Shown here in pieces: positions 15,961 to 44,743 of a DNA stretch of 64,000 bases. Position 1 is the first letter of the stretch, and every line of letters starts with the position of its first letter. A program made the position numbers and the translations under genes. The notes beneath the pieces are model-generated. The model was not told where the DNA came from. It made no database searches and worked only from the letters and a program-made list of their open reading frames with translations. Source of the stretch: a virus. The stretch covers positions 1 through 64,000 of IMG/VR virus record IMGVR_UViG_3300027710_000025, one strand, 5' to 3'.

Positions 15961-15980
15961 CACCAAAGGAGACTCTATCC

Positions 15981-17224: not shown

Positions 17225-17226
17225 AT

Positions 17227-17234: not shown

Positions 17235-17264
17235 ACAAGTTACATTTAATTTAGGAATTTATCT

Positions 17265-18116: not shown

Positions 18117-18161
18117 TTCAAGATTAGTTCCCAACAGCTAATTTTTAAGATAATTAGCTGT

Positions 18162-22700: not shown

Positions 22701-24006
22701 AAAAGATATAGAGCAGATAATGCCTACCTTCTGTGCTATACCCTTTGTTAGTATGGTAGTTAATACAGACGCAACCGTACAGCCCTGCTGTCTTATGCAA
22801 CGCAATACACACAGGCTAAAAGATGCTAACGGAAAAGTACTTACCATAAATGAAAAATTGTCTGATTCATGGAATTCTAATGAAATGAAGTTTATTAGAA
22901 CAGAGATGATATCTGGCAATAAATTAGTAGGATGTAATGTCTGCTACTTACAAGAAAGCAGTGGCCGCACCAGCAACCGTCAGTATGCTAATTCTGAATG
23001 GAGTAACAAACTAGGAGATAAGCATATGTTTGATCTAGTTGACAAAGCAGTGTTAACTGGTGGCGAACTTGATTACAGTCTTGCTTACTTAGATTTACGA
23101 CTAGGTAATTTGTGTAATCTAAAATGTAGAATGTGTAGTCCTTTCAACAGTAGTCAGATTGCTAAAGAGCATATAGAATTAGAAAAGAAAGATCCGGAAT
23201 ATAAAGCAGTATGGGCAAAGAGTTTTGGTTTCTTTGACAAACGAATTAATGAAGTTCAATCCTGGTTTGAAAGAGATTTCTTGTGGGATCAAATCATTGA
23301 TCTTATTCCTTCTTTAAAGAAAGTTTACATGACTGGAGGAGAGCCTACACTCATTCAGAACAACTTTAAATTTATGGAAGAATGTATCCGTAAAGGTCGC
23401 AGAGACATTGTATTGTTCTTTAACACTAACTGCACTAATGTAAACAAGAAGTTCACTAGTCTAATCGGACAGTTTGGCAGAGTTAATATCAATGCCAGCA
23501 TTGACGGTGTAGGTAGTGTGAACGATTATATTAGGAGTCCTAGCCATTGGGAACAGATTAATGGGAATGTAGAAACATTAGCACAAATGCCTAATGTTCA
23601 TTTAGGAATAACTCCCACAGTACAGGTGTATAATGTGTTTAATCTTGTTGATACATTAAAATGGGTTGATCAGCTTAATTCCAAATATAAGAAAAGTATA
23701 TTCGTTGACTTCTTAATAAATGTACATCCTGTTCATCTGTCTGTAACAATTCTACCAGACAGCATTAGGAACAAGGTAGCAAATGATTTAATAGAATACA
23801 AAAATACTTACTTAAACTCTCGTAGCCCTGAGTTAACAGTTAACAGTGTTAACGGCATTATAGGTTTATTGCAAAAACCAAGAGCAGCTGACTGGCAAGA
23901 GCAGCTGTCTCGATTTAAAACTTATACACACTCATTAGATGTTGAAAGAGGTCAAAGCCTTAGATCTATCAGTGCAGAACTAGCGGACTTAATCAATGAA
24001 GAGTAA
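22687..24006 (+). CDS. Radical SAM protein with extra N-terminal cysteines, 439 aa
   Basis: Radical SAM cluster motif 'CNLKCRMC' at Cys143, Cys147 and Cys150, followed by 'YMTGGEPTLIQ' (the GGEP motif binding SAM). Before it, Cys16, Cys34, Cys35, Cys83 and Cys86 form a SPASM/Twitch-like pattern placed at the N-terminus instead of the usual C-terminus, suggesting a second Fe-S cluster. SPASM/Twitch enzymes modify peptides or sugars. Paralogous to the next gene, which it overlaps by 11 bases. Confidence 0.85.
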   Translation: MNKFEKDIEQIMPTFCAIPFVSMVVNTDATVQPCCLMQRNTHRLKDANGKVLTINEKLSDSWNSNEMKFIRTEMISGNKLVGCNVCYLQESSGRTSNRQYANSEWSNKLGDKHMFDLVDKAVLTGGELDYSLAYLDLRLGNLCNLKCRMCSPFNSSQIAKEHIELEKKDPEYKAVWAKSFGFFDKRINEVQSWFERDFLWDQIIDLIPSLKKVYMTGGEPTLIQNNFKFMEECIRKGRRDIVLFFNTNCTNVNKKFTSLIGQFGRVNINASIDGVGSVNDYIRSPSHWEQINGNVETLAQMPNVHLGITPTVQVYNVFNLVDTLKWVDQLNSKYKKSIFVDFLINVHPVHLSVTILPDSIRNKVANDLIEYKNTYLNSRSPELTVNSVNGIIGLLQKPRAADWQEQLSRFKTYTHSLDVERGQSLRSISAELADLINEE

Positions 24007-25231
24007 AACATTTTGTATCTTACCCTGGACACACATTGCTACCTACACCGATGGCAGTGCATTACTATGCTGTGTGTCTGGAAGCGAACCTAACCTAAAT
24101 CTAAACAAACTGTCTTTGCAAGAAGTTTGGAACAGTGATCACTTTAAGTCAGCAAGGAAGAATATGTTGCAGGGTATCCCTGTTAAGAACTGTTCAGCCT
24201 GTTATAAAGAAGAACAGGTAGGAATACACAGTCATCGACAGATTGAAAATCACATATGGAAAGGTAAGCTAGGGGAAGACTACATCAACGAGCTTGTGGC
24301 CAGTACTAACGAAGACGGCTCCCTAGACAGAGATTGGATCACACTTGATCTAAGACTAGGTAATACCTGTAATCTACAATGTGTTATGTGCCGACCTATT
24401 GACTCTAGTAAATGGGTAAAACATGCAACCATTCTAAAACAAGAACTTACTACAGAAGCCAAATGGGATTGGAAACACAAAGTTGATAACTATTCTACAA
24501 ATAACTTTGAATGGTACAAAGACGATAAGTTCTTAGAAGACTTTTACAGTGCTGCAACAGACATTAAACATATTATATTTGGTGGGGGCGAACCTTTGTA
24601 TATTAAAGAGCACAAGGAGATACTGACTAGATTAGTAGAGTCTGGTGCAAGTAAAAACATTGACTTGCGTTATCACACCAACGGTACTATCTACGATAAA
24701 GAAGTAGTTGAGTTATGGACTAAGTTTAAGTATGTAGACATTATGATCAGCATTGATGGCGGCAAAGAGATCAATGACTATATTAGATATCCTGCCGACT
24801 GGGACACAATTGAACGTAATCTACATCTGTATGACAACACTCCTGCTAACATTGATATTAAAATACTATGTACAGTACAGGCATTAAACATTTATTATCT
24901 ACCTGAGTTTGCTGATTGGTTGCTGATGCAGAACTATAAAAAGATCAGCAAACCTAGACTGGATGGTATTTTTCATACCGGCACACTGCATTATCCTCAG
25001 TACCTATGCACTAAGGTATTGCCTAAACACACAAAGGCCAAAGTTGCTGAAAAGATATATCGATATGCGGAACAGCACACAGACAATCCTGCTATTCAAC
25101 GATTAACAAAAATGATAGACTTTATGAACAGTGAAGACTGGAGCAGTAAATTAGATCAAACTGTTGAATACATTAATAAGTTAGATTCCCTACGATCTAC
25201 TAACAGCGAGTTTTTTAAGAAGTTACTATGA
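23996..25231 (+). CDS. Radical SAM protein with extra N-terminal cysteines, 411 aa
   Basis: Same plan as its neighbour: N-terminal Cys7, Cys25, Cys26, Cys66 and Cys69, then 'CNLQCVMC' (Cys125, Cys129, Cys132) and 'FGGGEPLYIK'. 'DIMISIDGGKEINDYIRYP' parallels 'NINASIDGVGSVNDYIRSP' of the first. The two probably work in sequence or as a pair on related substrates. Substrate unknown. Confidence 0.85.
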   Translation: MKSKTFCILPWTHIATYTDGSALLCCVSGSEPNLNLNKLSLQEVWNSDHFKSARKNMLQGIPVKNCSACYKEEQVGIHSHRQIENHIWKGKLGEDYINELVASTNEDGSLDRDWITLDLRLGNTCNLQCVMCRPIDSSKWVKHATILKQELTTEAKWDWKHKVDNYSTNNFEWYKDDKFLEDFYSAATDIKHIIFGGGEPLYIKEHKEILTRLVESGASKNIDLRYHTNGTIYDKEVVELWTKFKYVDIMISIDGGKEINDYIRYPADWDTIERNLHLYDNTPANIDIKILCTVQALNIYYLPEFADWLLMQNYKKISKPRLDGIFHTGTLHYPQYLCTKVLPKHTKAKVAEKIYRYAEQHTDNPAIQRLTKMIDFMNSEDWSSKLDQTVEYINKLDSLRSTNSEFFKKLL

Positions 25232-26178
25232 AAGATACATTTTTAGAAGTTAAGATTAAAGATAAGTTTGATCAATATCATTATATAACATATAAGATTC
25301 AAAAATCGCACCTTGCAGCCCGATGGTTAGGTTTAACAAATTTAAATTTAAATAATCCTAAATATTCTCTTACCAGTGTGCTTAATAATAGGACCGTGTT
25401 AGATGTTCCTGAAATAACACAGCAAATTAACAATATTGTTTTAAAAATAAATCAGCTCTACGACAAGGTACTTCCTACCTATGAAGTAATTGATAATCCT
25501 AAATTAAATTACCTCCATGAAGAGTTTGAAATATTTGGAGAACGATACGATGAATTAAAAATGTCTAGAAAGTTTAGTTACGAACTTGAACAGACTTTTT
25601 TTGCATTAAATGAACATATTCATATGTGCGAAGATGCTATGATTACTGAACCTACCTCATGGGGAGGTTTCGGAATACTGTATGATATATTACCACTTGG
25701 TATGCATCTTAATATAATAGAGTCAGATAGGTTATTGCTTGAAACTGGTTTCACTTGGGGAAGATTATATCTAGGATATAATACATTAGGCAAAGATTGG
25801 TTAACGGTGTGTAAAGATAATGATGTAGAGGTGATTGTAAGAGATATGGTCAAGCCTCAAAAACGTTTTGCAGCCGAAGCTTGGTTAAACTTTAATATTG
25901 ACCAACAAGAACATAATAGAGTATCGTCATTTATTAATTGGTGCAACTCTTTGCCATTTGATGTACGCAAGAAAGTTCCTTTTAACAGTTTAAATCAATT
26001 ATCATTAGGAAGATTTCCTATAGGTGATATTGTCATTGACGATGCGTTTTTAAAGATTGATTCTAATCCCGACCACTGGAAAAGTTATAGACACAAATGT
26101 AAGCAAGAATGGAATCATAAAGTTCTAACTACATTTAGATCTGTTGAAGATATTAGAATATATGAACAAGACGATTGA
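25228..26178 (+). CDS. Unknown protein partnered with radical SAM pair, 316 aa
   Basis: AT-rich gene; mixed alpha/beta protein opening MKDTFLEVKIKDKFDQYHYI. No family recognised. It is coupled (ATGA) to the second radical SAM gene and overlaps the following hydroxylase-like gene by 17 bases, so it may serve the same pathway, as carrier, substrate-binding or accessory subunit. Confidence 0.75.
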   Translation: MKDTFLEVKIKDKFDQYHYITYKIQKSHLAARWLGLTNLNLNNPKYSLTSVLNNRTVLDVPEITQQINNIVLKINQLYDKVLPTYEVIDNPKLNYLHEEFEIFGERYDELKMSRKFSYELEQTFFALNEHIHMCEDAMITEPTSWGGFGILYDILPLGMHLNIIESDRLLLETGFTWGRLYLGYNTLGKDWLTVCKDNDVEVIVRDMVKPQKRFAAEAWLNFNIDQQEHNRVSSFINWCNSLPFDVRKKVPFNSLNQLSLGRFPIGDIVIDDAFLKIDSNPDHWKSYRHKCKQEWNHKVLTTFRSVEDIRIYEQDD

Positions 26179-26833
26179 AACATTTTTATTAGAGCACGAA
26201 CACAAGACGTGGCGGCCAACTGATGAGCTTCCTATTAATATATGGAATAGCGATTGGCCGTGGGCTCCTATTTTTGCAACCGTGGATCAACAAACGATTA
26301 ATGAAGAGTTAAGAAAAGTAGAGCACTTCTTTGTTCCGCATAGAGATAAAGATAAAATTAACAGTTACGGACATGAAGGTTGGTCTGCATTAACTCTGCA
26401 TGGTTTAGATTATGACAAGACAGAAAACTACGATAGATACGGACACACTGATGAAAGCAAATATAGATGGACAGAAGTTTGCGACTACTGCCCTTATATT
26501 GTTAATTTAATAAAGGGCTTGCCGTTTTTAAGTTACGGACGAGTTCGTATTATGAAGTTATCAGCAGGTGGATATATAATGCCACATGTAGACGGTCCTG
26601 GAAGAATATTTGGTCCTTTAAATTTTGCATTAACACAGCCCGAGGGATGCAGATTTGTTTTTAAAGATATCGGTACTGTGCCTTTTAAAGTAGGCAGAGG
26701 TTTTATGTTAGATATTGGTCGAGAGCATATTGTTATTAACGAATCTAGTGAAGATAGATATCACATTATTATTCATGGCAGACCTACTGCGGCAATAACT
26801 AATTTGATAGCAGAATCAATTAAACAGTTATGA
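26162..26833 (+). CDS. Aspartyl/asparaginyl hydroxylase-like 2OG-Fe(II) oxygenase, 223 aa
   Basis: Shows the double-stranded beta-helix pattern: 'MPHVDGPGR' (first His and Asp ligands), 'LNFALTQPEGCRFVF', 'GRGFMLDIGREHIVINESSEDRYHI', where the His of REH is the second iron His and the Arg of EDR binds 2-oxoglutarate. This fits the AspH-like family. Start at 26162 (ATG) inside the end of the preceding gene. Substrate presumably a product of the same array. Confidence 0.8.
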   Translation: MNKTIETFLLEHEHKTWRPTDELPINIWNSDWPWAPIFATVDQQTINEELRKVEHFFVPHRDKDKINSYGHEGWSALTLHGLDYDKTENYDRYGHTDESKYRWTEVCDYCPYIVNLIKGLPFLSYGRVRIMKLSAGGYIMPHVDGPGRIFGPLNFALTQPEGCRFVFKDIGTVPFKVGRGFMLDIGREHIVINESSEDRYHIIIHGRPTAAITNLIAESIKQL

Positions 26834-28185
26834 ACATAGTACAGGGCAGATTTGAAAATAACATAGACCTTGCAGTCTGTATATTTCCATCTGACATGTT
26901 AAAACATGATCAGTTAAAAGATACCATGACTGATTATACTACATTTTATGCACATCGATTAGAACAGATAAGTTCTAAGTTAGATATCGTATATGCAGAC
27001 AGTATTGATCAAGGCTTAACAAACTATAGTCAATATAAACATATCTTGTTTATGGCAGCAGGAGTTAGGATATACGATGCAAGTATTATCTTAGAGATTG
27101 TTGAAGAAATTGAAAAACATCCTAACTATCTAGCCGCAGCACATATATTAGAATGGAAAGAAAATTGGTACGAACTGCATCATCAATTTGTATTAGTTAA
27201 TACAGATAATTGGAATAAGATAGGCAAACCTGCATTTGGCAACTGGCAATCTAATACAGAAGAATTAGTAGTAGTTGAACGTAGCGTAGAAAACTTTCAC
27301 GACGATTATACTCCGTTATGGATCAAAGATACTGGTCGCAGACATCTCCAACATCATAATAAGCAAGGATGGAACTTTATTGATAAAGGCCTACGTGCAG
27401 GTTTAGATATAATTAACTGGAATCAAAGTATTAGAAACAAGCGGACTTATTACTATCCAGAAACCAACAGTACAGCATTTTTTAAATCATACAAGACTAA
27501 AACATTAGATCCTACTGTGATTAATTTTAATCAGAAAAGATTAATTAGTGAAATGTCTGCCGGTGTTAGTAATCAAATATGGGCAATTAATAGTGAACAT
27601 ATGTATATCCGAAATGCTGGCAAGACTTACGATATTGTAGCATTGCCTGCCAGCGGATTTAAGTATCTAGATATCTTTAAATCAAAAGCATTATCTCCAT
27701 CAGGCGAGATAATCATTTATGATTACAATCAGTTATCTCTCAATTGGATCTACCATATATACAGTTCTAGTTCAATGGACATTAAGGAATTAGTTACTAC
27801 CTTTCCTCATCGTAAACATTTAAAATGGTTTGGGTATAACAATACAAACATAATTGTCAACGGAGAATTAGCAGACGGATTCGTTGAAAGTTTTAAAGTA
27901 ACTAAAGATTATTTTAATGGCAAGTTTGATCAGTATCTAACACAGTTTAGAAACAGCCCTGTTAGGTTTATCAAAACTGATTTGATATACAATTATCTTA
28001 ATCTATTAAATGAAATAGGAGATAGTCGTTGCTTATTTCATATTTCTAATATCTATGCTACTGACTTTCTAGTCAGTACAATAGGTCTAAAAAATGCAGA
28101 CAGGTTATTTGATCGATTCACAGCTATCTTGCATCCTAACACAAAGATAGTAGGACATACTCCTAAAGGAAAGTTTTTAACATGA
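26830..28185 (+). CDS. Unknown two-domain protein, 451 aa
   Basis: N-terminal 200 residues resemble a glycosyltransferase-like fold ('YKHILFMAAGVRIYDASIIL' in the place of a DxD strand). The C-terminal half ('FKYLDIFKSKALSPSGEIIIYD', 'VRFIKTDLIYNYLNLLNEI') looks like a methyltransferase-type Rossmann domain. Neither assignment is secure. Coupled by ATGA on both sides. Confidence 0.7.
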   Translation: MNIVQGRFENNIDLAVCIFPSDMLKHDQLKDTMTDYTTFYAHRLEQISSKLDIVYADSIDQGLTNYSQYKHILFMAAGVRIYDASIILEIVEEIEKHPNYLAAAHILEWKENWYELHHQFVLVNTDNWNKIGKPAFGNWQSNTEELVVVERSVENFHDDYTPLWIKDTGRRHLQHHNKQGWNFIDKGLRAGLDIINWNQSIRNKRTYYYPETNSTAFFKSYKTKTLDPTVINFNQKRLISEMSAGVSNQIWAINSEHMYIRNAGKTYDIVALPASGFKYLDIFKSKALSPSGEIIIYDYNQLSLNWIYHIYSSSSMDIKELVTTFPHRKHLKWFGYNNTNIIVNGELADGFVESFKVTKDYFNGKFDQYLTQFRNSPVRFIKTDLIYNYLNLLNEIGDSRCLFHISNIYATDFLVSTIGLKNADRLFDRFTAILHPNTKIVGHTPKGKFLT

Positions 28186-28727
28186 ATATAGACAAGGACG
28201 CATTCAGTAGCGGACAGATTGGCAGCAAGATTTGGTTATGTGAAGAATTAGAAAAGACAGGGTGGCAGTCTGACTTTACTTACATATACGGAGGCTGGCA
28301 CGGTATTACTGCATTCTTGTTATTAAGCAGGGGTAAATTTGAAGTTAATAGAATACGCAGTATTGATATTGATCCTAATGCAGAACCTATTGCCGATATG
28401 ATTAATGAAAACTGGGTATGGCAGGAGTGGAAGTTTAAAGCATTCACTAACGATTGTAATAACTTTGAACCTATATATGGAGACCTAGTTATTAACACTA
28501 GCACAGAGCATTTTGATAACATGACTTGGTTTGATCGAATTCCTAAAGGTACTCGAGTGGTACTGCAAGGAAATAATATGCCGCATGAGGATCATGTGAT
28601 ACATACAGAAACGTTATCGGACTTTATTGAACATTACCCGCTATCAGAATCTGTGTTTACAGGAGAAAAAGAATTTGTATATCCTACTTGGAAGTTTTCT
28701 CGCTACATGATCATAGGTGTTAAATAA
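28182..28727 (+). CDS. Class I SAM methyltransferase-like protein, 181 aa
   Basis: 'FTYIYGGWHGITAFLLLS' occupies the SAM-binding loop position (motif I), 'RIRSIDIDPNAEPIADMI' is the acidic end of strand 2, and 'GDLVINTSTEHFDNM' corresponds to motif IV. Short for a methyltransferase, without an obvious substrate domain. Its stop codon is part of the next late promoter motif. Confidence 0.75.
   Translation: MNIDKDAFSSGQIGSKIWLCEELEKTGWQSDFTYIYGGWHGITAFLLLSRGKFEVNRIRSIDIDPNAEPIADMINENWVWQEWKFKAFTNDCNNFEPIYGDLVINTSTEHFDNMTWFDRIPKGTRVVLQGNNMPHEDHVIHTETLSDFIEHYPLSESVFTGEKEFVYPTWKFSRYMIIGVK
28719..28726 (+). promoter_or_regulatory. Late promoter, near-leaderless type
   Basis: GTTAAATA, overlapping the methyltransferase stop, then AATT and ATG at 28731. 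Confidence 0.55.
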
Positions 28728-28730
28728 ATT

Positions 28731-29270
28731 ATGTTTATTAAAAAACTTGAATTAACTGCTGACAGTGATCTAATGCGTAGCGGGTTAGATAGTGTGTTAA
28801 CTATGACACAATGGGGAACTGAAAATCAAATTGGACTTTCCCATCGCCCGGGTGCTAACAATTTATGGAAAGATTGTGTAGGCAGTTTATACGACAGAGA
28901 AACAGGACTTGATATTGCAAACGAGCAAGAATTTACAGAGTTAAATTCAAATGTTCCAGAGTACATACAATCTAAATTAGAAGAGCTCGCAACACTTGAA
29001 AACATAAAATTGGGTAGAATAAGAATTATGCGTCTTATGCCCAAGACCGGGCTATCAGTTCATGCAGATACTTCAGTTAGATATCATTATGTACTGCAAA
29101 CTAATCCACATGCGTATATTGCACATACTTTTCATGCAGGCAATGTTAGTGCATTGTGTTTTCACATTCCAGCAGATAACAACTTTTATAAAGTCGATAC
29201 TACTAAGCATCATTTTGTATACAACGGAGGGCAAGAGCCCAGAATTCATCTAGTAGTTTGCCCTATTTAA
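28731..29270 (+). CDS. 2OG-Fe(II) hydroxylase-like protein, 179 aa
   Basis: 'IRIMRLMPKTGLSVHADTSV' carries the HxD pair, 'TKHHFVYNGGQEPRIHLVV' the distal His and the Arg for 2-oxoglutarate. Same AspH-like pattern as 26162-26833 but more divergent. Possible leaderless mRNA (late motif ends 4 bases before ATG). Confidence 0.72.
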   Translation: MFIKKLELTADSDLMRSGLDSVLTMTQWGTENQIGLSHRPGANNLWKDCVGSLYDRETGLDIANEQEFTELNSNVPEYIQSKLEELATLENIKLGRIRIMRLMPKTGLSVHADTSVRYHYVLQTNPHAYIAHTFHAGNVSALCFHIPADNNFYKVDTTKHHFVYNGGQEPRIHLVVCPI

Positions 29271-29274
29271 CTAC

Positions 29275-29282
29275 GATAAATA
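29275..29282 (+). promoter_or_regulatory. Late promoter, leaderless type
   Basis: GATAAATA, then TACAC, then ATG at 29288. Confidence 0.7.
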
Positions 29283-29287
29283 TACAC

Positions 29288-29776
29288 ATGAATATCTACA
29301 TAGTTGTTAAGAAATATACCCTGTCTGAATTTGCAGATGCCACATATTGGGGGCAATTTAATTTATTAACTGGGCTCCCGTTATCTGACGATCAATTTTT
29401 AAAGTTGATTAACTTCTATTCTACAATAGATAGTTACCGAAATTTTGTAATGAATAGTTTGTCTTTTGCTGACGGACAAGGCTATAAGTTTGTGTCTACC
29501 GCAAACTCTTCAGTAGTCTATTCTTACTTTGCAGTGTTAGATTTAGCAGCAATACCAAATATTGTAAAAAATGGATTAGAATACGAAACATTTGCCACAG
29601 CACGAGATTCGCTATTTGCAGAGTTAGGATGGACTAGCCTACAAGAACGTGTAACAACCGCAGAAGTGACCTTTGATAAAACTACTAATCAATTCGTAGG
29701 TATTCCCAGTAGCTATGAAGAAATTGCTCAGTTATACGAGATTTCTACAGAATTAGAAACAACCCTAGGAACTTGA
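29288..29776 (+). CDS. Unknown late protein, 162 aa
   Basis: Opens MNIYIVVKKYTLSEFADATY; helical core and Thr/Tyr-rich segments. No family recognised. The ATG at 29288 is exactly 5 bases after the late promoter box and no Shine-Dalgarno is visible; an upstream reading would start inside the preceding gene. Confidence 0.7.
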   Translation: MNIYIVVKKYTLSEFADATYWGQFNLLTGLPLSDDQFLKLINFYSTIDSYRNFVMNSLSFADGQGYKFVSTANSSVVYSYFAVLDLAAIPNIVKNGLEYETFATARDSLFAELGWTSLQERVTTAEVTFDKTTNQFVGIPSSYEEIAQLYEISTELETTLGT

Positions 29777-29777
29777 A

Positions 29778-30455
29778 ATGAGCGACCCAATTTATTTTAT
29801 ATGTGCTACTCCGGGCAGTTCTGGAAATTCTTTAGTCAGAATGTTTAGAACAGTTATTGAAACAACATCGGCACTGACTCCTACTACATTTTTACAGACG
29901 CCTGTTAGTCCCATGACTCCCGAATTTTGGTTTGATAATGTTGACCCGGGCACAAACCAAGTAGTATATGTTCCGTATCGCCCAAACTATGCAAAACTCA
30001 GAGAGAGATTCCCAGGATGCAAAATTGTAGTAATGACACATTTGCTAACTGAGTGTAACAGTCTTGCGTTAAGCCTTTGGGAAGGCTTTTATAAGAACGC
30101 ATACGAATTTGGTGCAGAACCATTTTTTAGACAAATATTAGAAACACACAGTCACTTATTTTCTAGCACCACATTAACGCCCGATCAGCTATCCAATAAA
30201 GAAATTAACACCTTTGTAAAGATAGTTGCATACGAAAAATTGTTAGATGGATTTCATTGTTTAACAATCCCCAACGATCCTGACGTTATTGAAATTAGCC
30301 ACAAAGATTTCTATTACAATAGACCGCAAGTAAGAAGTCAAATAGAAGCTTTTACAGGCTCAGCGTTTCGTCAAGCAGAAATTGATGTATATGATCAGAT
30401 AGCAGAGGCACACATCAATAGTTTCTTTAAAACTTCCTCGCTATTCTTGCGATAA
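29778..30455 (+). CDS. Sulfotransferase-like P-loop protein, 225 aa
   Basis: 'PIYFICATPGSSGNSLVRMF' at the N-terminus resembles the 5'-phosphosulfate loop of PAPS sulfotransferases (strand, then P-x-S-G-[ST]). 'LRERFPGCKIVVMTH' and 'DPDVIEISHKDFYYN' fit later strands of the fold. The catalytic His and 3'-phosphate site are not obvious, so the family call is tentative. Last gene of the modification island, followed by a sigma-70 promoter. Confidence 0.6.
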   Translation: MSDPIYFICATPGSSGNSLVRMFRTVIETTSALTPTTFLQTPVSPMTPEFWFDNVDPGTNQVVYVPYRPNYAKLRERFPGCKIVVMTHLLTECNSLALSLWEGFYKNAYEFGAEPFFRQILETHSHLFSSTTLTPDQLSNKEINTFVKIVAYEKLLDGFHCLTIPNDPDVIEISHKDFYYNRPQVRSQIEAFTGSAFRQAEIDVYDQIAEAHINSFFKTSSLFLR

Positions 30456-30494
30456 ACCGGTTTTACCATAAAAATCTGTCAAAATCACCAGATC

Positions 30495-30524
30495 TTGACA
30501 GTGTTCTAGCCTTTGTGCTATAAT
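30495..30524 (+). promoter_or_regulatory. Sigma-70 promoter in the late block
   Basis: TTGACA (30495-30500), 18-bp spacer, TATAAT (30519-30524), ahead of the cell wall hydrolase. Confidence 0.85.
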
Positions 30525-30558
30525 TATTCTTACAACTTTAAAAAAGGAGGGCATACCA

Positions 30559-31161
30559 ATGTCTAAACTACTAAACCTAGTAGCTACAACAGTAATAGGC
30601 CTGATGTTTTTATCAAGTAGCGTAGCGGCTGCAGACGATATTAGCACCAGCAAATTGGATCAGAAAGAACTTATGTGTCTAGCACGTAACATCTTTTATG
30701 AATCCGGCAGTGAATCAGAGAAGGGCAAAATTGCCGTTGGAATGGTTACACTAAACAGAACCGAGCATCCTGCGTTTCCCCGCACAGTATGCGAAGTAGT
30801 TAAACAGAAAACAGTTTTTGAAAAACCTAGACAGATTAAGACTATTCGAGAAGTCACTACTGGCTGGGGCATATGGAAGAAAACTGAACAACACACAGAA
30901 GTCCAAACGGTGGTAGACAAACGAGTTGTTTGCCAGTTTAGTTGGGTATGTGCAATTACTAAGCGTATCAAAGATACTGATCAACGATGGATTGAGAGTT
31001 TAGCAGTAGCACGTAGTTTACTCACAGGTGAATACGAGCATTATAAGCAGGAAATGGGCGACTGGCTATATTTTCATTCAACTTACGTAAATCCAAGATG
31101 GCATAACTTAAAGAGAGAAGCTAGAGTCGGAGGACATATCTTCTACGTTGAGAAACGATAA
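30559..31161 (+). CDS. Secreted SleB-type cell wall hydrolase, 200 aa
   Basis: N-terminal signal peptide (MSKLLNLVATTVIGLMFLSS, Ala-rich end near residue 25) targets the periplasm. The mature part matches the Hydrolase_2/SleB family: 'LARNIFYESGSESEKGKIAV' with the catalytic Glu, 'MVTLNRTEHPAFPRTVCEVV', 'CQFSW' and the final 'HIFYVEK'. It cleaves peptidoglycan glycan strands and is a likely lysis enzyme; being secreted, it may not need a holin. AAGGAGGG site and its own sigma-70 promoter. Confidence 0.88.
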   Translation: MSKLLNLVATTVIGLMFLSSSVAAADDISTSKLDQKELMCLARNIFYESGSESEKGKIAVGMVTLNRTEHPAFPRTVCEVVKQKTVFEKPRQIKTIREVTTGWGIWKKTEQHTEVQTVVDKRVVCQFSWVCAITKRIKDTDQRWIESLAVARSLLTGEYEHYKQEMGDWLYFHSTYVNPRWHNLKREARVGGHIFYVEKR

Positions 31162-31394: not shown

Positions 31395-31639
31395 GCAGTT
31401 TCTTTTCTAATAAGCTCGGCTAGCACAGTTACTGCATCTCCGACTTTAGTGAACTTCAACAGTTCTCTATCTTTAACTTCAATTTTGTAAGTATCTTCGA
31501 TATTGATAACCATTTCAAAAATACTAAGACTGTCGACTCCTAAGTCTTTTTCCAATTCGACATGATCTTCTAATCTTGCTCGATCCATTAAAAAAGACTT
31601 GGCCATAATGTCTTTGATTTGTTCTTCTAAATTTTCCAT
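31376..31639 (-). CDS. acpP: Acyl carrier protein, 87 aa
   Basis: Four-helix ACP pattern with 'DLGVDSLSIFEMVINIEDTY': Ser37 of DSL is the 4'-phosphopantetheine site, followed by the acidic helix II that docks partner enzymes. The length is normal. Start at 31639 is preferred (MENLEEQIKDIMAKSF); it sits 1 base after the stop of the iron-sulfur carrier gene. Opposite strand to its neighbours; overlaps the 74-aa gene tail to tail by 19 bases. It may feed the desaturase at 49997 or subvert host lipid synthesis. Confidence 0.85.
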   Translation of the reverse strand: MENLEEQIKDIMAKSFLMDRARLEDHVELEKDLGVDSLSIFEMVINIEDTYKIEVKDRELLKFTKVGDAVTVLAELIRKETAQDLPS

Positions 31640-31640
31640 A

Positions 31641-31967
31641 TTATATCCTAAATGATTCTCCGCATCCACAACGATCTCGTTCGTTTGGATTTCTAAATTC
31701 AAATCCTTCGTTCAATCCGTTACGTACATAATCTACAGTCATATTCTGCATATACGGCAGATGCTGTTGACTGACTAATACTACAAAGTCTTTTTGAGCA
31801 AAGTTGATTACACCCACTTCGTGAACGTATTCGTCTACATATTCTAACACATATGCCAGTCCAGAGCAACCAGTTGTCTTTACACCAATTCGAATCCCGA
31901 CACCCTTGCCACGCTTTTTGAGCTGGGTTGTTACTTTGTTAATAGCCGGTTCTGTGAAGGTGATCAT
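31641..31967 (-). CDS. A-type iron-sulfur carrier (IscA/ErpA family), 108 aa
   Basis: Family pattern 'TGCSGLAYVLEYVDEY' with Cys34, and the C-terminal 'CGCGESF' with Cys100 and Cys102: all three cluster-binding cysteines are present. Such carriers deliver 4Fe-4S clusters. Three radical SAM enzymes are encoded upstream, so supplying their clusters is a reasonable role, though NrdA-linked or host enzymes are alternatives. Forms a two-gene unit with the ACP. Confidence 0.88.
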   Translation of the reverse strand: MITFTEPAINKVTTQLKKRGKGVGIRIGVKTTGCSGLAYVLEYVDEYVHEVGVINFAQKDFVVLVSQQHLPYMQNMTVDYVRNGLNEGFEFRNPNERDRCGCGESFRI

Positions 31968-31975
31968 GTTGTGTA

Positions 31976-31983
31976 CTTAAATA
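31976..31983 (+). promoter_or_regulatory. Late promoter
   Basis: CTTAAATA, 22 bases before the GTG at 32006. Confidence 0.5.
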
Positions 31984-32005
31984 AAACACTATTTACAGAT
32001 TACAA

Positions 32006-34201: not shown

Positions 34202-34230
34202 TTGACAAACATACAAAATGGCTGTATAAT
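34202..34230 (+). promoter_or_regulatory. Consensus sigma-70 promoter of the ligase/IF-1 unit
   Basis: TTGACA (34202-34207), 17-bp spacer, TATAAT (34225-34230). Leader of about 25 bases before the ATG at 34261. Confidence 0.92.
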
Positions 34231-34260: not shown

Positions 34261-34587
34261 ATGGAAGCACTTAAAGAAGTCACAGATTGGGGTTCGAGCA
34301 CTGCCTGCAACCACACATACCTGCTTGACGGCACTAATCTAGTTGCCTACATCAAATATGGTGACCGAGCACCTTTCTACTTTAAGAATCCAATCAAAGG
34401 ATTCGACAAGCGTGGCCGCAAGTTTGAAGCAGTTAAACCTAATCCATTTACTGTAAAGAAACAGTCCAATACAATTGCTGTGCAAGGCAGCAAAGGTCAA
34501 ACCTATTATGTAGATCCAGAAGCAAAGACATGTACTTGCTCTGGCTTTCAATTCCGTGCAAAATGTAAACATTTGGAGACAGTATGA
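34261..34587 (+). CDS. SWIM-type zinc finger protein, 108 aa
   Basis: C-terminal 'CTCSGFQFRAKCKHLE' is a CxC...CxH SWIM zinc site (about residues 90-105). The N-terminal part has 'CNHTYLLDGTNLVAYIKYGD'. SWIM domains bind DNA or proteins and often accompany repair enzymes; here it is coupled (ATGA) to DNA ligase and may assist it. Confidence 0.8.
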   Translation: MEALKEVTDWGSSTACNHTYLLDGTNLVAYIKYGDRAPFYFKNPIKGFDKRGRKFEAVKPNPFTVKKQSNTIAVQGSKGQTYYVDPEAKTCTCSGFQFRAKCKHLETV

Positions 34588-35876
34588 GTAATTGCGATCG
34601 AGTAATCCGTAGCTTAGAAGAACATCCAAGCCGCCTAAACAAAGAAGCAATCATTGAAGCTGAACGAGGTAACACTGAACTGCTTGAAGGCTTCCAATTG
34701 GCCTTAAGTCCATTTATCACCTTTGGTGTTAAGAAGGTACCTAGCCACAGTGGTCCAGATGGACAAGGCTTACCGTGGGTAGCTTTTAAAGAGCTGTGCG
34801 AATTGTTACGCACACGACAACTTACCGGCGATGACGCACGTTCTGCAATTGAACTAGCATTAAGTGCAAGCACACAGACACAATGGAATGATTGGTATCG
34901 TCGTATCCTTATTAAGGATCTTCGTTGTGGAGTCAGTGAAAAGACCATTAACAAAGTTGTTAAGAATGCCGTGCCACTGTTTGAGTGCATGTTGGCACAC
35001 GATGGTGCCAATCACGAAAGCAAAGTCTCCGGCAAGAAATTGCTAGAGCCAAAGTTAGATGGTGTTCGTGTACTGACTATTGTAGACTGTGAAGCTCGTA
35101 CAGTTGTGCAATACAGCCGCAATGGTAAAGAATTAGTTAACTTTCCGCACATCACTGAAGGACTGCTAGCACACATTGACGACTTTGATCGTAGCTTTGT
35201 GTTGGACGGTGAGATCATCAGCACTAGTTTTCAAGCATTGATGAAGCAGGTACATCGTAAGAGTGATGCCGATGCCAGCGATGCTGTGTTGATGTTGTTT
35301 GACATGCTGCCTCTTAGCGAATTCAAAGCAGGAAAGAGTACACTTGGACAGAAGCGTAGGACTGCTTTCTTAAAACAGTTCAAAGCTACATTTGACAAAG
35401 TTGGCAACGTTGGTCTTGTTCCGCAAGTTGAAGTAGACTTAGATACTGCAATAGGCGAAATGCAGTTTGTTGCCTTTAATAAAGAAGCACTTAAGAACAA
35501 CTACGAAGGCATTATGATTAAAGATCTTGATGCCAAATATGTATGCAAACGTCATGTAGCTTGGCTCAAACAAAAACCATTTATCGAAGTATCCCTGGAG
35601 GTTACAAATGTTGAAGAAGGTACTGGCCGCAATGAAGGTCGACTGGGAGCGTTGGTCTGTTCCGGTATTGACGACGGAAAGACGATTGTCGTCAATGTTG
35701 GTAGTGGCTTTAGCGATAGTGATCGAATTGAGTTTTGGGCTGATCGTGATAGCGTCATTGGTCAAATTGTAGAAGTTCGAGCAGATGCTATTACACAAAA
35801 TCAAGACGGCACATACAGTTTGCGGTTCCCTCGCTTCCTGCGATTCCGTGGATTTAAAGCAGGAGAAAAGATTTGA
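34584..35876 (+). CDS. ATP-dependent DNA ligase, 430 aa
   Basis: Motif I 'LLEPKLDGVRVL' with Lys157 as the adenylated residue. N-terminal DNA-binding part contains 'RRILIKDLRCGVSEKTIN', typical of phage ligases. Later 'FVLDGEIIS' (motif III), 'YEGIMIKDLDAKY' (motif IV) and 'WLKQKPFIEVSLEV' (motif V) are in order, then an OB-fold end. It seals nicks in replication and repair, like T4 gp30. Confidence 0.93.
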   Translation: MSNCDRVIRSLEEHPSRLNKEAIIEAERGNTELLEGFQLALSPFITFGVKKVPSHSGPDGQGLPWVAFKELCELLRTRQLTGDDARSAIELALSASTQTQWNDWYRRILIKDLRCGVSEKTINKVVKNAVPLFECMLAHDGANHESKVSGKKLLEPKLDGVRVLTIVDCEARTVVQYSRNGKELVNFPHITEGLLAHIDDFDRSFVLDGEIISTSFQALMKQVHRKSDADASDAVLMLFDMLPLSEFKAGKSTLGQKRRTAFLKQFKATFDKVGNVGLVPQVEVDLDTAIGEMQFVAFNKEALKNNYEGIMIKDLDAKYVCKRHVAWLKQKPFIEVSLEVTNVEEGTGRNEGRLGALVCSGIDDGKTIVVNVGSGFSDSDRIEFWADRDSVIGQIVEVRADAITQNQDGTYSLRFPRFLRFRGFKAGEKI

Positions 35877-36121
35877 CTCTGCCAGACGAACGCTATCGGG
35901 CAGTAGTTCAGACTCAACGATTCCTATTAAGGTTGTTGACTACTCCTAGAATTCCTAAGGCTGTCAAAGATGAGGCTCGATGGTGTTTGCGGCATTACCC
36001 TAGCGAATATGATATGAAACAGGCGGCCGAAAATTGCCCCAGTGTATTTCAGGAACGGATGGAGCCATTGTACCGTATGGTTAAACAGTACGATCAAGAT
36101 AAGGAAAATACAGATGATTAA
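35873..36121 (+). CDS. BPSL0761-like protein, 82 aa
   Basis: 'MTLPDERYRAVVQTQRFLLR' and 'ARWCLRHYPSEYDMKQAAE' recall the BPSL0761 family of small helical proteins found mainly in beta- and gammaproteobacteria; function unknown. The start is TTG, overlapping the ligase stop (TTGA) with AGGAG 7 bases upstream, which decides it. Confidence 0.75.
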   Translation: MTLPDERYRAVVQTQRFLLRLLTTPRIPKAVKDEARWCLRHYPSEYDMKQAAENCPSVFQERMEPLYRMVKQYDQDKENTDD

Positions 36122-36302
36122 AGATGGAAGTAAGTGGGGTGATGGAATCGACAAGGTGTTCATTGTGCTTCATAGCGTAGAACAAAATGGACACACGTGG
36201 ATCCACTATCGTTCCGAAAAAGTTGACGAAACAGGCACTCCAAAAGAATATAGCTGTTATCAAGAAAGTTTTCTAAGCCGCTTTAGGCCTTTACCAGAAT
36301 GA
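36114..36302 (+). CDS. Small protein, 62 aa
   Basis: MIKDGSKWGDGIDKVFIVLH and a beta-rich 'WIHYRSEKVDETGTPKEYSC' segment; no recognised family. Overlaps the preceding gene by 8 bases and the next by 4, with AAGGAAA upstream. Confidence 0.7.
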   Translation: MIKDGSKWGDGIDKVFIVLHSVEQNGHTWIHYRSEKVDETGTPKEYSCYQESFLSRFRPLPE

Positions 36303-36523
36303 CCTATCACTCGTATAAACATGATGTTAAAACAATTAGGCCCGGAGATCCTTTGTGGCATATAAAATCCAAATTAGTTATTACGCCCAGAGCTGGATTC
36401 GAAATATCCGAGAAGTGCCCGGCAGAGTACAGGGCTATTTTGAACACCTGTATGTCAAACGGTTGGTTAAAACCCGTGGCGTACTTAAAAGGATCAGAAG
36501 CAACAATGGAGTACCTAAAATGA
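36299..36523 (+). CDS. Small protein, 74 aa
   Basis: MTYHSYKHDVKTIRPGDPLW; basic, mixed alpha/beta. No family recognised. Coupled by ATGA on both sides in the ligase unit. Confidence 0.7.
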   Translation: MTYHSYKHDVKTIRPGDPLWHIKSKLVITPRAGFEISEKCPAEYRAILNTCMSNGWLKPVAYLKGSEATMEYLK

Positions 36524-36765
36524 TAGAAAAAGCAGCAGTCAAAGATCTATTCTATGGCGGAGTTATGGAAATTTTAAGTAATCGACATTACTACTATCAC
36601 AGCAGTATTGGATCTGAATACAGCCATTTTACTGATGTAGGCAAAGAAGCTATGGAAGTTTATTTGAACAATATGGCAGGGCTTATGTTCAAGGCCGAGG
36701 AAGCTAGCTTAAATAAGCGAGCTAAAGATCTAGTGATCAACGGCCTAAAAGGAGAGAAAGTTTAA
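36520..36765 (+). CDS. Small protein, 81 aa
   Basis: [20 protein letters not shown] onward; helical with Tyr/His-rich '[17 protein letters not shown]'. No recognised family. The start at 36520 is preferred over a longer reading because it overlaps the preceding stop as ATGA. Confidence 0.72.
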
Positions 36766-36767: not shown

Positions 36768-36986
36768 GTGGCAAAAGAAGACCAAATTAGCATGATGGGC
36801 AAAGTAGAAGAAGTTCTGCCCAATGCTATGTTTAGAATTAAGTTAGAAAACGACCATACGGTCCTTGGACACATCTCGGGCAAGATGCGTCAACACAAAA
36901 TCCAAATCCTACTTGGTGACACAGTTAGAGTCGAAATGAGCCCATATGACTTAACTCGTGCTCGTATTGCATATCGAGAGCGATAA
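36768..36986 (+). CDS. infA: Translation initiation factor IF-1
   Basis: 72 residues, the exact size of bacterial IF-1, aligning without gaps to the E. coli protein as I remember it. Identical landmarks include MAKED at the start, 'LPN.MFR..LEN.H', 'HISGKMR' and 'PYDL..ARI.YR.R' at the end. IF-1 is an OB-fold protein that occupies the ribosomal A site during initiation. GTG start with AAAAGGAGAG upstream, two bases after the preceding stop. Last gene of the sigma-70 ligase unit, directly before a terminator. Phage copies are rare. Confidence 0.95.
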
Positions 36987-37010: not shown

Positions 37011-37034
37011 AAAAAGGCCCCGGAGGGCCTTTTT
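37011..37034. terminator. Bidirectional terminator
   Basis: AAAAAGGCCC-CGGA-GGGCCTTTTT. Ends the IF-1 unit on the plus strand and the HNH gene on the minus strand, whose stop overlaps it. Confidence 0.9.
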
Positions 37035-37554
37035 ATTCTTGTATACCTAAGTATATCTTCCAGTCGTCGTGCTTGACGTCGAATGGCATTTTCCTACGGC
37101 GGTCCACAAGTTCCCAGTAAGTGGGCTTGTGAGGCTTATGCTTGGGCACAATCTTCTTGTTGTTACCTTTGTTAGCATTGCAAGTACCACAGGCACAGAC
37201 TGTATTTTCAAACGTAGTCTTACCACCGTGCGAAGTTGGCAACACGTGGTCCAAAGTAGCTGTTCGCTTGTTCACTTCTGTTCCACAATATTGGCAAGAA
37301 TAGCCGTCACGCAAGAACACGTTCTGCTTGGAATAGCGAATAGTGCTCTTAGGTTTCATATACTCAGTCAGCATTAGTACCGAGGGAACTTTAGTTTCCC
37401 AATTTGCAGAGTGAACAACCCAATCGTCATACCAGCTCAATACAACGGCCTTTTCCAAAACCATGTATCGAATCGCATCTTGCCAGTTGATAATGCTAAC
37501 TGGCAATAGGCAGACTGGCTGTGCGTCAGAGTTTAAAAGTAGTACATCGCTCAT
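37033..37554 (-). CDS. HNH endonuclease, 173 aa
   Basis: 'CQYCGTEVNKRTATLDHVLP' with 'TSHGGKTTFENTVCACGTCN' gives the HNH core: first CxxC, the DH catalytic pair, Asn, second CxxC, then 'NKGN'. N-terminal 60 residues (MSDVLLLNSDAQPVCLLPVS) are typical of a T4-like and cyanobacterial HNH family. Late motif 6 bases upstream of the ATG. It may be involved in packaging, host DNA attack or homing; which is not clear. Confidence 0.88.
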   Translation of the reverse strand: MSDVLLLNSDAQPVCLLPVSIINWQDAIRYMVLEKAVVLSWYDDWVVHSANWETKVPSVLMLTEYMKPKSTIRYSKQNVFLRDGYSCQYCGTEVNKRTATLDHVLPTSHGGKTTFENTVCACGTCNANKGNNKKIVPKHKPHKPTYWELVDRRRKMPFDVKHDDWKIYLGIQE

Positions 37555-40279: not shown

Positions 40280-43200
40280 ATGACAACAAGAATCAAACTA
40301 CGCAGAGACACAGCCGCTAACTGGCTTGACTCAAACCCAATTTTAGCCGCAGGTGAGCCTGGCTTAGAAACAGACACTGGCAAAGTCAAATACGGTGACG
40401 GCGTCTCGGCCTGGGCACTGCTACCACATGCCGGTAGTGATACCCTTGACGATCAAGGCAATGTCGTAATCACAGCAGGTAGCACAGAGCATTGGATTGC
40501 TACACAGCGTAGAGAAGATTATAACACTGAACCACGCGGTCAGCGTTATGACAGCCAGGGCAATCTATATGCGTTGACTAAATCTGAGGCTGGTCAAGGA
40601 TTTTCAGTTGCAGTTATTACCAAATACACAGCCACTGGTTCAGTTGCTTGGCAAAAGTCCTTTACTGATGTTTTTCCAACAGCATTGGCAGTAGACAGCA
40701 GTGACAGTGCTTATATTACTCTAGGAAGATCAGAAGCACCGGTAGTTGCAGTGGTCAAGTTCAGTACCGCAGGTGCTATACAGTGGCAAAAAAACTACGA
40801 CATTGGTCCGGTTATGTCATTCGATGCCTACTTAGAAGAAAAGAGTTCTAGTACAATGGCCCTGGCAGTTACAGGAGTAACAGGAGAAATTCCAGCACCA
40901 AATCTTGTTTTGGTAATGGAGATCAGTAGCACAGATGGGTCGGTACAAATCAAGAAACAACTGGCACTTGCTGAAGAAGATCAGGTAGTAGCAGTTACAG
41001 GCATCGATGTTGACGGCGACCAAAATGTCTATGTCACTGGTTATTATTATGATGCTGTCAATGACGGTAAGAACAAGATGTTCATTGAAAAACTAGATGA
41101 AGATCTAGATCGCATATGGTCAAAGAGTCTAGAAACTGATAACAGTTATGATATGGCGGGCGGTGACTGTGCCAGTGACGCACTGGGCAATGTCTATGCT
41201 GTGGGCACATACCTAGTTGATACGGTCAATAGTGTCAACGGAACTAGCGATAGAACCGCAGCCGTATTAGTTAAATTAAACTCCAGCGGTGTTGTACAGT
41301 GGACTCGTAGGATTTCAGGACCCTGCAACAATATTGTTGCAGGCCTAACAGCCACTGCCACTGGCGATGTTTATCTATCTTCTGTGACATTTGTTGTTAA
41401 TGCTACCGGAAACCTTGCTCAAGAAAGTGAACTTGAGCAAGAAGGATATGGCAGCAGAAAAATACTTGTGGCACGCTATAACACCCAAGGTGCTGTTATT
41501 TGGCAACGCTATGTTGATGTAGCACAGATAGACGAAGAGGACTTTGACGGTGGCGATTATGGCATTGGACAGGCTGTGGCAGTATTTGGTGACAAGTTTG
41601 CGGTCAGCGGTTATGGCCGTAGTACAAATAGTGGTCCAACAGCCTATGGCGGTTCAGCAGATCAAGAAGCAGATTATTTTATAGTACAGTTGCCCACAGA
41701 TGGAACAGAACTGACCATAGGTGATCTATCATTTACCGAAAGCCGTATTCCTGGACGCTTTGTCACACACGAAGCATCTAACAGTCCTTTGGTCATTGCC
41801 AACTACTCTGAAACAATTCTAGCAGAAGACGCTGAACTAACAACAGACACTAACGCTCGGGTGTCCAACCGTATTGTCAACAGCGAGTCCTATCAGTATA
41901 AGTTTGGTGCTGATGGCACATTGACTGTGCCCAACGATGGCGACATTAAGTTGACACAGTCGCAGGTAGGCTACTTTATGGCTGTGGGCAAGACCTACAA
42001 CGATGACAACGACATTATGGCTCGTGCTACCGCAGTGGACTCGTTTGGTAATCTGTATCTTGCTGGTCAAGACAGTGATCGAGATCAACCATTTGTAATG
42101 AAGATCTCGCCAGAAGGCGACAGACTGTGGAGTGTTACCATTGAGGATGATGATGATGGTGACGGTGGTTGGGCTTGGGCCGTTAGCGTACATCCTACCA
42201 CCGGTAATATCATGGTCTTGGCTGAAATGTATGGCGAATACGACTATAGTATTTTAGTCACCGTGGATCAGGACACTGGTCGTATTTTAGATCACGAAAA
42301 GTTTAGCGATTCTACTGCTGATGTTACGCTACATGACATGGCCTGGACCAGTACTGGAACTTATGTGTTGGCAGGAGAAAAACAAGGTGAGTTCGCTGAC
42401 GAACTTGAGGTAGTTCCGCAATCTGGCAGTACCACAGGCACAATCCTTATATTAAGAAGTGCTGTTGATGTTGAGCCAAGCACTAGTTGGCAGATTGGCG
42501 GTACAGGATTTAGCGTATTTGAAAGTATTGCTAACATTGAACGCTACACAGGTCTAACTGGTACTACACAAGAAGGTAGTGGTGCCACATTTGACATCAT
42601 TAACAACGGCAATGGAACTTATAGTGCTAGTGTTGTTAATGGTGGCTCTAACTATCTACCAGGACACAAGATCAAGATTTTAGGTACAAGTTTAACAGGT
42701 GCTGAAAATACTAGCACATTTACTAGTGGTGCTGAATATACAGCTGGACAAGTAAATTTTGCTGGTACCGGTGGTATTTTTGCTCCTTGGTATGTTGGCG
42801 TTAACTCCGCACTTACAAGTATTACATCATTAATAACCACAGGAACAACGCTTACACTTACAGTCGGTGGTGCGACTACATCAACTAGTGTGGTTACTGT
42901 TGGAGAATTTGAAGGGAACGCACTGTATGAAGTTGGTGATCTTAGTTTCTTTGGAACTAGCGGTACAAGCATTGACAGTATTACTGTAGGCAATGGTACT
43001 TACGGTACTGGAGCAACACCTGCTAACGACATCATCCTCACAGTGGCTGCTGCGGATGCGGGTGTTATTACTCTTGTAACTAACAGCGGAACAGCCGCAG
43101 GAACTTTTGGTGCTACTGCTACTGCGGTAACAGGTACTAACTACGAAGTAGGTAGTGGATTTGAACTTACATTTGAAAGTTCAAGATACAGTAACCTTTA

Positions 43201-44743
43201 CACTGACTACAACTACTCCAATATCACTAACCAAGGTTCTAACTATGTAGAAAATGATATCATTGTTATCGCAGGAACAAGCCTAGGCGGAACAAGCCCA
43301 GCAAACGATCTAACTGTGAGAGTATATGCGTCAGGTGGCACAGTTGGATATGTTAACGAATTCTCAGGTACCAGCCAATCAACAACTTGGAAGTTTGAAA
43401 CAACTACACAGGTTGATTTTGCTGGCACAGGTACCTGGAATATTACCTATCCATTGAGCGAAGAATCTGTGTTGATTACTCCTTCATGGCAGCGTACTTT
43501 TGGTACATTGGTCAACTACTCAGATAGAATCGGTTCTGTAGCATTAGACACTGGTAACAACATCATTGCTGTGGGTATGGCTGCTGGTGAAATATCGACC
43601 AGTACTACTACTATTCGAGATCTTGCCGTAGTCTATAAGTTTAACAGCGAAGGTACTCTACTGTGGACTCGTCAACTCAACGAAGTCAACGACGATTGCT
43701 ATGCTAGAAGTGTGGTAACCATCGGTACAGACATCTATGTCACACACTTTAGTACTGATGACGGAGACACAGTAGTTACTAAACTAGATGCCAGTGGTAA
43801 CATCAAATGGCAGCGTATAACCAACAGCGATGACGACACCTGTATTGCTCGCACAGCCGACGGTGATCTGATAGTAATCTCTGAAGCCTACTACAATTTT
43901 GCCGACGATGATGGTATTAAAATAATCAGATTCAGTCCTAATGGCGAAGTTGTTTACAAGCGTTGGTTAACGGCCACTACCAATGACGATACCTGGTTGG
44001 CCACACCTCGTGGATTGACTACAGATGCCCACAGTTTCTATATTGGTGCGTATTTTAGTACTGACGACTATGAATCAGGATTAGCAGTTCGACTACCCCT
44101 AGACGGTTCAGGCACAGGCGAACACGGTTCATTCAGTTATGTCGATGTCAATAACGAAACCAGTAACTGGCTGTCAACTGGCATTGAAGACGAAAACTTT
44201 ACTGTTGGAGAACTTGATCTAGAATCCGAAAACAACTATGCCGGTCCGTTGGCCGACGGCAACCATCCCTACATCAACACTGGAACCACAGTCACAGTGA
44301 GCATGGGTGATTTCTATGTTGACAGTTACTACCCAGGGTTGACTGTGGAACCTGTTCGTGATACAGATGGTGGCAGTATTGTGTTTGCCGATGGCTCAAA
44401 GCAGAGCACCAGTGCTACAGACATTCCGCAACGCATTTATACTGGACAGCGTTATACATTGAGTATGAAAGATCGCGGACATCACATCCTATGCGACAGA
44501 TCCGACGACAATATTGTAATCCCTTACAACGCTCGTGTTCCTTTTCCTATAGGCACTGTGATTACCATTGTTAATAGAAGCAGCGATACTATCAACATTA
44601 GTAAAGAAGGCGGTAGTATTGAAGTAATGTTGGCCGGTGATGGGTTCTATAGTTATTTCGACCTAGCACCATACGGTGTTGCTACACTGCTAAAGATCGG
44701 CATTGAGTCTTGGATGATTTCCGGCAATGTTAGCCCAGACTAA
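40280..44743 (+). CDS. Giant tail fibre/adhesin, 1487 aa
   Basis: Residues 1-55 'TRIKLRRDTAANWLDSNPIL' with 'AAGEPGLETDTGKVKYGDG' are the common phage fibre N-terminal domain. Residues 60-500 and 560-740 and 1080-1330 contain repeated 'D..GN.Y....' blade-like units (SBBP/NHL type) suggesting beta-propellers; the middle has repeated 'G.NY..ND.I.I.GTSLGG' units. The C-terminal part ends with a short sandwich domain. The largest gene in the window, likely receptor-binding. Confidence 0.88.
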   Translation: MTTRIKLRRDTAANWLDSNPILAAGEPGLETDTGKVKYGDGVSAWALLPHAGSDTLDDQGNVVITAGSTEHWIATQRREDYNTEPRGQRYDSQGNLYALTKSEAGQGFSVAVITKYTATGSVAWQKSFTDVFPTALAVDSSDSAYITLGRSEAPVVAVVKFSTAGAIQWQKNYDIGPVMSFDAYLEEKSSSTMALAVTGVTGEIPAPNLVLVMEISSTDGSVQIKKQLALAEEDQVVAVTGIDVDGDQNVYVTGYYYDAVNDGKNKMFIEKLDEDLDRIWSKSLETDNSYDMAGGDCASDALGNVYAVGTYLVDTVNSVNGTSDRTAAVLVKLNSSGVVQWTRRISGPCNNIVAGLTATATGDVYLSSVTFVVNATGNLAQESELEQEGYGSRKILVARYNTQGAVIWQRYVDVAQIDEEDFDGGDYGIGQAVAVFGDKFAVSGYGRSTNSGPTAYGGSADQEADYFIVQLPTDGTELTIGDLSFTESRIPGRFVTHEASNSPLVIANYSETILAEDAELTTDTNARVSNRIVNSESYQYKFGADGTLTVPNDGDIKLTQSQVGYFMAVGKTYNDDNDIMARATAVDSFGNLYLAGQDSDRDQPFVMKISPEGDRLWSVTIEDDDDGDGGWAWAVSVHPTTGNIMVLAEMYGEYDYSILVTVDQDTGRILDHEKFSDSTADVTLHDMAWTSTGTYVLAGEKQGEFADELEVVPQSGSTTGTILILRSAVDVEPSTSWQIGGTGFSVFESIANIERYTGLTGTTQEGSGATFDIINNGNGTYSASVVNGGSNYLPGHKIKILGTSLTGAENTSTFTSGAEYTAGQVNFAGTGGIFAPWYVGVNSALTSITSLITTGTTLTLTVGGATTSTSVVTVGEFEGNALYEVGDLSFFGTSGTSIDSITVGNGTYGTGATPANDIILTVAAADAGVITLVTNSGTAAGTFGATATAVTGTNYEVGSGFELTFESSRYSNLYTDYNYSNITNQGSNYVENDIIVIAGTSLGGTSPANDLTVRVYASGGTVGYVNEFSGTSQSTTWKFETTTQVDFAGTGTWNITYPLSEESVLITPSWQRTFGTLVNYSDRIGSVALDTGNNIIAVGMAAGEISTSTTTIRDLAVVYKFNSEGTLLWTRQLNEVNDDCYARSVVTIGTDIYVTHFSTDDGDTVVTKLDASGNIKWQRITNSDDDTCIARTADGDLIVISEAYYNFADDDGIKIIRFSPNGEVVYKRWLTATTNDDTWLATPRGLTTDAHSFYIGAYFSTDDYESGLAVRLPLDGSGTGEHGSFSYVDVNNETSNWLSTGIEDENFTVGELDLESENNYAGPLADGNHPYINTGTTVTVSMGDFYVDSYYPGLTVEPVRDTDGGSIVFADGSKQSTSATDIPQRIYTGQRYTLSMKDRGHHILCDRSDDNIVIPYNARVPFPIGTVITIVNRSSDTINISKEGGSIEVMLAGDGFYSYFDLAPYGVATLLKIGIESWMISGNVSPD

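Follow-up and report, generated by a model that had tools for sequence, protein, structure and literature searches.

The 64,000-nucleotide stretch of viral DNA analysed here (hereafter the window) encodes, at positions 36768-36986 of the plus strand, a genuine and intact translation initiation factor IF-1 (infA) of 72 amino acids, read from a GTG start to a TAA stop. The gene sits in a neighbourhood conserved across a lineage of T4-like phages, and its product represents a variant in which residue 46, basic in every cellular IF-1 of our sample, has become Gln. This change, located at the modelled contact with A1492 and A1493, looks new for a phage lineage; neither the residue 46 change nor the T4-like ligase/IF-1 block was described in the literature searched, which comprised the main texts of open-licence papers.

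The window encodes a complete IF-1

The first-pass annotation, made from the sequence alone, had claimed a complete 72-residue IF-1 with HISGKMR and PYDL motifs. Translation of the ORF at 36768-36986 showed both motifs, and the profile searches agreed with the claim: the protein matched TIGR00008 (infA) over its full length with 111.3 bits (cut-off 61.15) and PF01176, likewise over its full length, with 89.4 bits (cut-off 30.2), scores that place the match far above chance. It also aligned over its entire length with the phage family PHROG 30201 (2.8e-29), whose entry is listed as of unknown function, whereas the window member is an IF-1. An AlphaFold model built with 43 relatives (pLDDT 86) showed a five-strand OB fold, with strands at residues 7-17, 21-26, 31-36, 52-57 and 64-70 and, between strands 3 and 4, the short helix (residues 38-42) that the IF-1 fold requires. 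This model superimposed on the 30S-bound IF1 of E. coli (9fco_I), to which the window protein is 60% identical, with TM scores of 0.94/0.96 and an rmsd of 0.8, and on Thermus IF1 (1hr0_W) with a TM score of 0.92. Profile scores and superposition on 30S-bound IF1 together identify the ORF product as IF-1. Bacterial IF-1s (infA, TIGR00008; 9fco, 1hr0, 2n3s) share with the window protein its length, the OB fold and residues K39, R41, R66 and R70, at about 60-70% identity and with the window protein above the curated family cut-off; in contrast to them, the window gene starts with GTG and is coded within a phage early-type unit.

The gene is carried by a lineage of T4-like phages

The window is part of a 71,313-bp virus record in IMG/VR, a fragment that carries RNR, ligase and a match to a virion structural protein. 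A syntenic sister contig of 151 kb (G008), with nucleotide identities of 84.3% across 11.5 kb and 82.5% across 12.4 kb, contains T4-type genes for the portal (Portal_T4, 2.7e-109), the major head protein (phrog_138), tail sheath, gp15 and the large terminase subunit, and also encodes a DnaB-like helicase and a RecA-like protein. Judged by its structural gene matches, G008 is a T4-like myovirus. Among the 80 viral IF-1 loci that one scan gave, a conserved block emerged, made up of an ATP-dependent DNA ligase near IF-1 (71 loci), a convergent HNH endonuclease gene (69 loci) and a small ORF directly before IF-1, named here orfX (56 loci). Contigs of the lineage, most of them fragments, are between a few kb and 354 kb long. 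Set against the 200-kb limit for the complete genome of a huge phage, relatives have record lengths of up to 207-354 kb, the window record 71 kb and G008 151 kb; these records are classed as linear and may be fragments. As regards cultivated relatives, the ligase was at best about 35% identical to that of any GenBank phage listed, and orfX had no match among the phages listed; the lineage that carries the ligase/IF-1 block therefore appears to be uncultivated.

The claim that the IF-1 gene is carried by a phage held, since the outcomes that had been set against it, host contamination and a chimeric assembly, are excluded by synteny in many independent virus contigs. Some IF-1 matches labelled as phage are indeed contaminants. 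One of them, the contig of Acinetobacter phage MD-2021a (L171, CAKLQH020000005.1), was considered as a phage precedent and rejected, because the stretch concerned is bacterial chromosome (truA, leuBCD, infA) in a mislabelled record. For the window gene, the same ligase/IF-1/HNH block recurs in many independent virus contigs with IF-1 identities of about 61-100%, T4-like structural genes lie on the sister contig, the best cellular match in the scans made reaches about 70% identity and the flanks are phage genes, all of which leaves contamination or a chimera a next to negligible probability. As these scans gave no cellular IF-1 nearer than that, a recent acquisition from a host was likewise rejected. 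In trees built without columns 42-46 the lineage still clustered, but these trees could not assign it to a bacterial group. The further assertion that phage IF-1s are rare and reported mostly from very large phages stood in part: IF1 in huge phages has indeed been published (Al-Shayeb 2020, PMC7162821, main text), but the window gene is no isolated case and belongs to the conserved genes of a large T4-like lineage.

Several other genes of the window deserve mention. A dense early-promoter, takeover-type region on the minus strand (130-12733) holds about 17 perfect TTGACA-17-TATAAT promoters before small ORFs. It is followed by an operon-like run (13309-31161) that encodes a phosphomannomutase-type protein, several radical SAM proteins (B12-type at 13901, twitch-domain NF033640 family at 22687, SPASM at 23996) and a cell wall hydrolase (30559). 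The stretch 31639-31985, most of which is spanned by a small minus-strand ORF (31641-31967), recurs over up to 350 bp in many related phage loci with 67-83% identity and in either orientation, and is possibly mobile. A collagen-repeat fibre-like protein (37982) is encoded beside a 1487-aa protein (40280-44743) that has SBBP beta-propeller repeats and resembles a Leptospira lipoprotein family, and a fatty acid desaturase gene (49997-50740; PF00487, 5e-16) is a possible auxiliary metabolic gene.

IF-1 is the last gene of a conserved sigma-70-type unit

IF-1 had been described as the last gene of a sigma-70 unit with DNA ligase, and this arrangement was recovered. A sigma-70-type promoter found by motif match, with a perfect TTGACA-17-TATAAT (34202-34230, plus strand), precedes the unit, and an intrinsic-terminator-like hairpin followed by a T-rich tract (37011-37034, plus strand) ends it. 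On the same strand, the promoter is followed by a 108-aa ORF with a weak SWIM zinc-finger match (34261-34587; Pfam PF04434, 3.7e-5), which occurs in 9 of the 80 related loci, by the ligase (34584-35876; phrog_114, 1e-95), by short ORFs without known family that are missing from most relatives (35873-36523) and by orfX (36520-36765), whose 81-aa product has no known family. The HNH endonuclease gene (37033-37554, minus strand; Pfam HNH_5, 2e-13), third member of the conserved block, converges on the unit. Almost every ligase-linked viral locus has a promoter with at most one mismatch to TTGACA/TATAAT ahead of the ligase, at a distance of about 60-70 nt, or more where the SWIM ORF intervenes; the arrangement of the unit is therefore conserved. 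The same perfect motif recurs in the takeover-type region at the left of the window, and analogy with T4 early promoters suggests that the IF-1 unit is transcribed early by the host RNA polymerase.

A Shine-Dalgarno-like AGGAG, read from the sequence, is located at 36750-36754 (plus strand), 13 nt before the GTG. GTG is the IF-1 start codon in 56 of 60 members of the lineage; the neighbouring genes start with ATG (ligase 33/33, HNH 34/35, counting only loci whose alignment reaches residue 1), as do 61 of 80 viral IF-1s outside the lineage. In 47 of 56 loci, 0-2 nt separate the stop codon of orfX from the IF-1 start codon behind it, a spacing that suggests coupling of IF-1 translation to that of orfX. 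It is also conceivable that IF-1 regulates its own synthesis through start-codon selection.

Comparison of coding sequences indicated that IF-1 is under strong purifying selection. Between the window and G008 genes there are 8 synonymous changes and no nonsynonymous one, and pN/pS values to further relatives were 0.09-0.35. Between the same two contigs, protein identity is 100% for IF-1, 72% for orfX and 63% for the ORF at 32006, and orfX, with a pN/pS of 0.34 against G008, evolves faster than IF-1.

Residue 46 distinguishes the phage lineage from cellular IF-1s

A ten-residue segment of the window protein, overlooked in the first-pass annotation, deviates from the bacterial KMRxxYIRIL: the window IF-1 carries Q42, K44 and Q46, where bacteria mostly have K/M, an aromatic residue and R/K. 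We compared these positions with those of 142 cellular IF-1s (128 distinct) from Pseudomonadota, Bacillota, Verrucomicrobiota, the phylum of a Magasanikbacteria genome and others. Position 46 was basic in all 142 (107 Arg, 35 Lys), whereas 59 of the 60 distinct ligase-linked viral sequences had a non-basic residue there (53 Gln, 6 Thr, with a single Lys); these counts refer to sequences and not to evolutionary events. The change was kept in IF-1 proteins down to about 62% identity to that of the window. Position 44 was K/R in 59/60 of the lineage and aromatic, mostly F/Y, in most cells, and position 42 was Gln in 58/60 of the lineage and in 0/142 cells. The 30S-interface residues K39 (or R), R41, K/R64, R66 and R70 were kept in the window protein and in nearly all its relatives. 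In a model of Clostridioides difficile IF1, R41 and R46 are set against the flipped-out A1492 and A1493 (PMC10913371), the R46 contact being that of a docked model of another species' factor. With Gln instead of a basic residue at 46, the window protein still passes the family cut-offs. Because the family models do not demand it, a basic residue 46 is, on sequence comparison, a conserved and not a defining feature of IF-1, and Q46 marks a variant.

The residue 46 change in the lineage was probably one ancestral event, retained since. Several independent losses were considered and are not claimed: parsimony counted 9 changes on a poorly resolved 265-row tree, but a single clade was not rejected by the AU test (p 0.84). 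Viral IF-1s without ligase carry mostly R/K46, with Asn in the Phosso-like ones and Glu, Thr or Gln in a few. In viruses as a whole the basic residue may thus have been lost more than once (Phosso-like Asn; Glu or Thr elsewhere), although trees with only 67 columns cannot prove independence and do not settle the number of changes. Loci outside the lineage, such as L188, L197 and L356, also lack the aromatic residue 44, some of them with Asn, Thr or Glu at 46.

Proposed function and alternative explanations

The reading that we favour, and hold to be reasonably probable, is that an early-expressed phage IF-1 displaces or supplements the host IF-1 on the 30S and makes altered contacts with the decoding centre. 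According to this proposal, a functional IF-1 would be passed down in a lineage of large T4-like myoviruses, and the consensus host sigma-70 promoter would direct early co-transcription of ligase, the small unknown protein and IF-1, the last being made by coupled translation from its GTG start. The phage factor would then occupy the A site of the host 30S as host IF-1 does, replacing or outcompeting it. Its hold on the decoding centre would differ from that of the host factor because Gln/Thr takes the place of Arg/Lys at residue 46 and a basic residue that of an aromatic one at 44; during infection, this altered hold would make initiation efficient on a different set of start sites or mRNAs. 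We infer the timing of expression, the binding to 30S, the competition and the mRNA bias, and the use of phage IF-1 to steer initiation, put forward by the first-pass annotation, is plausible. Against this reading, loss of the basic residue could merely weaken binding, Q46 could match a host with a different decoding centre or uS12, and the R46 contact derives from docking of a foreign factor. Tentatively, the proposal could be extended: the lineage may use a specialised IF-1 (R46 to Q/T, aromatic 44 to K/R) with which early 30S complexes favour phage mRNAs by start-site choice, sometimes together with phage bS21.

The phage protein could also act just like that of the host and simply raise the ratio of IF-1 to ribosomes, the changes at 42-46 being neutral or compensatory, with position 44 taking over the basic charge of position 46. 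Since higher levels of IF1, together with IF3, bias the choice of mRNAs for initiation in cold shock (PMC6511846), dosage alone could matter, and both the intact remaining interface and the nearly invariant basic residue 44 of the lineage are in line with this explanation. However, position 46 is basic in all cellular IF-1s sampled, including those with Arg44 (18) or Lys44 (5), which indicates that a basic 44 alone does not free residue 46 in cells; we consider a plain dosage supplement rather unlikely. Loss of a residue that contacts the decoding bases and an apparent early promoter would also suit an antagonist, that is, an altered IF-1 that fills 30S A sites, fails at a later step (release, subunit joining) and lowers host initiation as a form of shutoff. 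A long-term inhibitor would block phage translation too, and an otherwise native-like sequence under strong purifying selection fits an active factor better, so that this role seems quite improbable. IF1 is a member of the S1/CspA-like OB-fold group, and the gene is co-transcribed with a DNA ligase instead of translation genes, both of which would be compatible with a moonlighting RNA-binding protein (RNA chaperone or antiterminator) without a role in the 30S A site. Almost the full set of 30S-interface residues is kept at the positions conserved in bacteria, and this, together with 60% identity and a TM score of 0.94 to a 30S-bound IF1, makes such a function highly improbable.

Of 35 IF-1 virus records, 13 also carry a gene for another translation component, ribosomal protein bS21; it was not found in the 71-kb record of the window or in G008, both of them fragments, and a search of 24 records for IF3 as a partner gave none. 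These absences mean little because the records may be fragments. The only tRNA (11650-11727, anticodon CAU) was considered as an initiator partner of the phage factor and ruled out because its 1-72 end is paired and the GGG/CCC anticodon stem is absent.

Comparison with known phage systems

Phage control of host initiation has been suspected from the presence of bS21, IF1 and IF3 genes, and its mechanism has been little tested. The lineage described here provides a factor of 72 residues in which a modelled ribosome contact is altered by one sharply defined change, so that the question of whether a phage initiation factor changes what ribosomes initiate on becomes directly testable. The IF1 of huge phages (PMC7162821) and translation initiation factor 1A, whose gene is one of those conserved in Jug gut phages (PMC12363816), are likewise phage-encoded initiation factors, thought in the main texts of these reports to redirect host translation. 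Unlike those cases as presented there, the window IF-1 can be assigned to a single T4-like lineage that has its own residue signature and a conserved gene neighbourhood; the main-text passages retrieved from the two reports make no mention of the residue 46 change. Sinorhizobium phage Phosso (PV764938), an isolated phage of 469 kb, has an annotated IF-1 that is 58% identical and also carries a non-basic residue 46 (Asn), but its neighbourhood differs, with MutT-like and Clp-like genes and no ligase annotated beside it. Phage bS21 (PMC6375957, PMC9723584) is, like IF-1, a 30S component tied to initiation that phages replace; in contrast, expression of bS21, a ribosomal protein, has been linked to the late phase, whereas the window IF-1 lies behind an early-type promoter.
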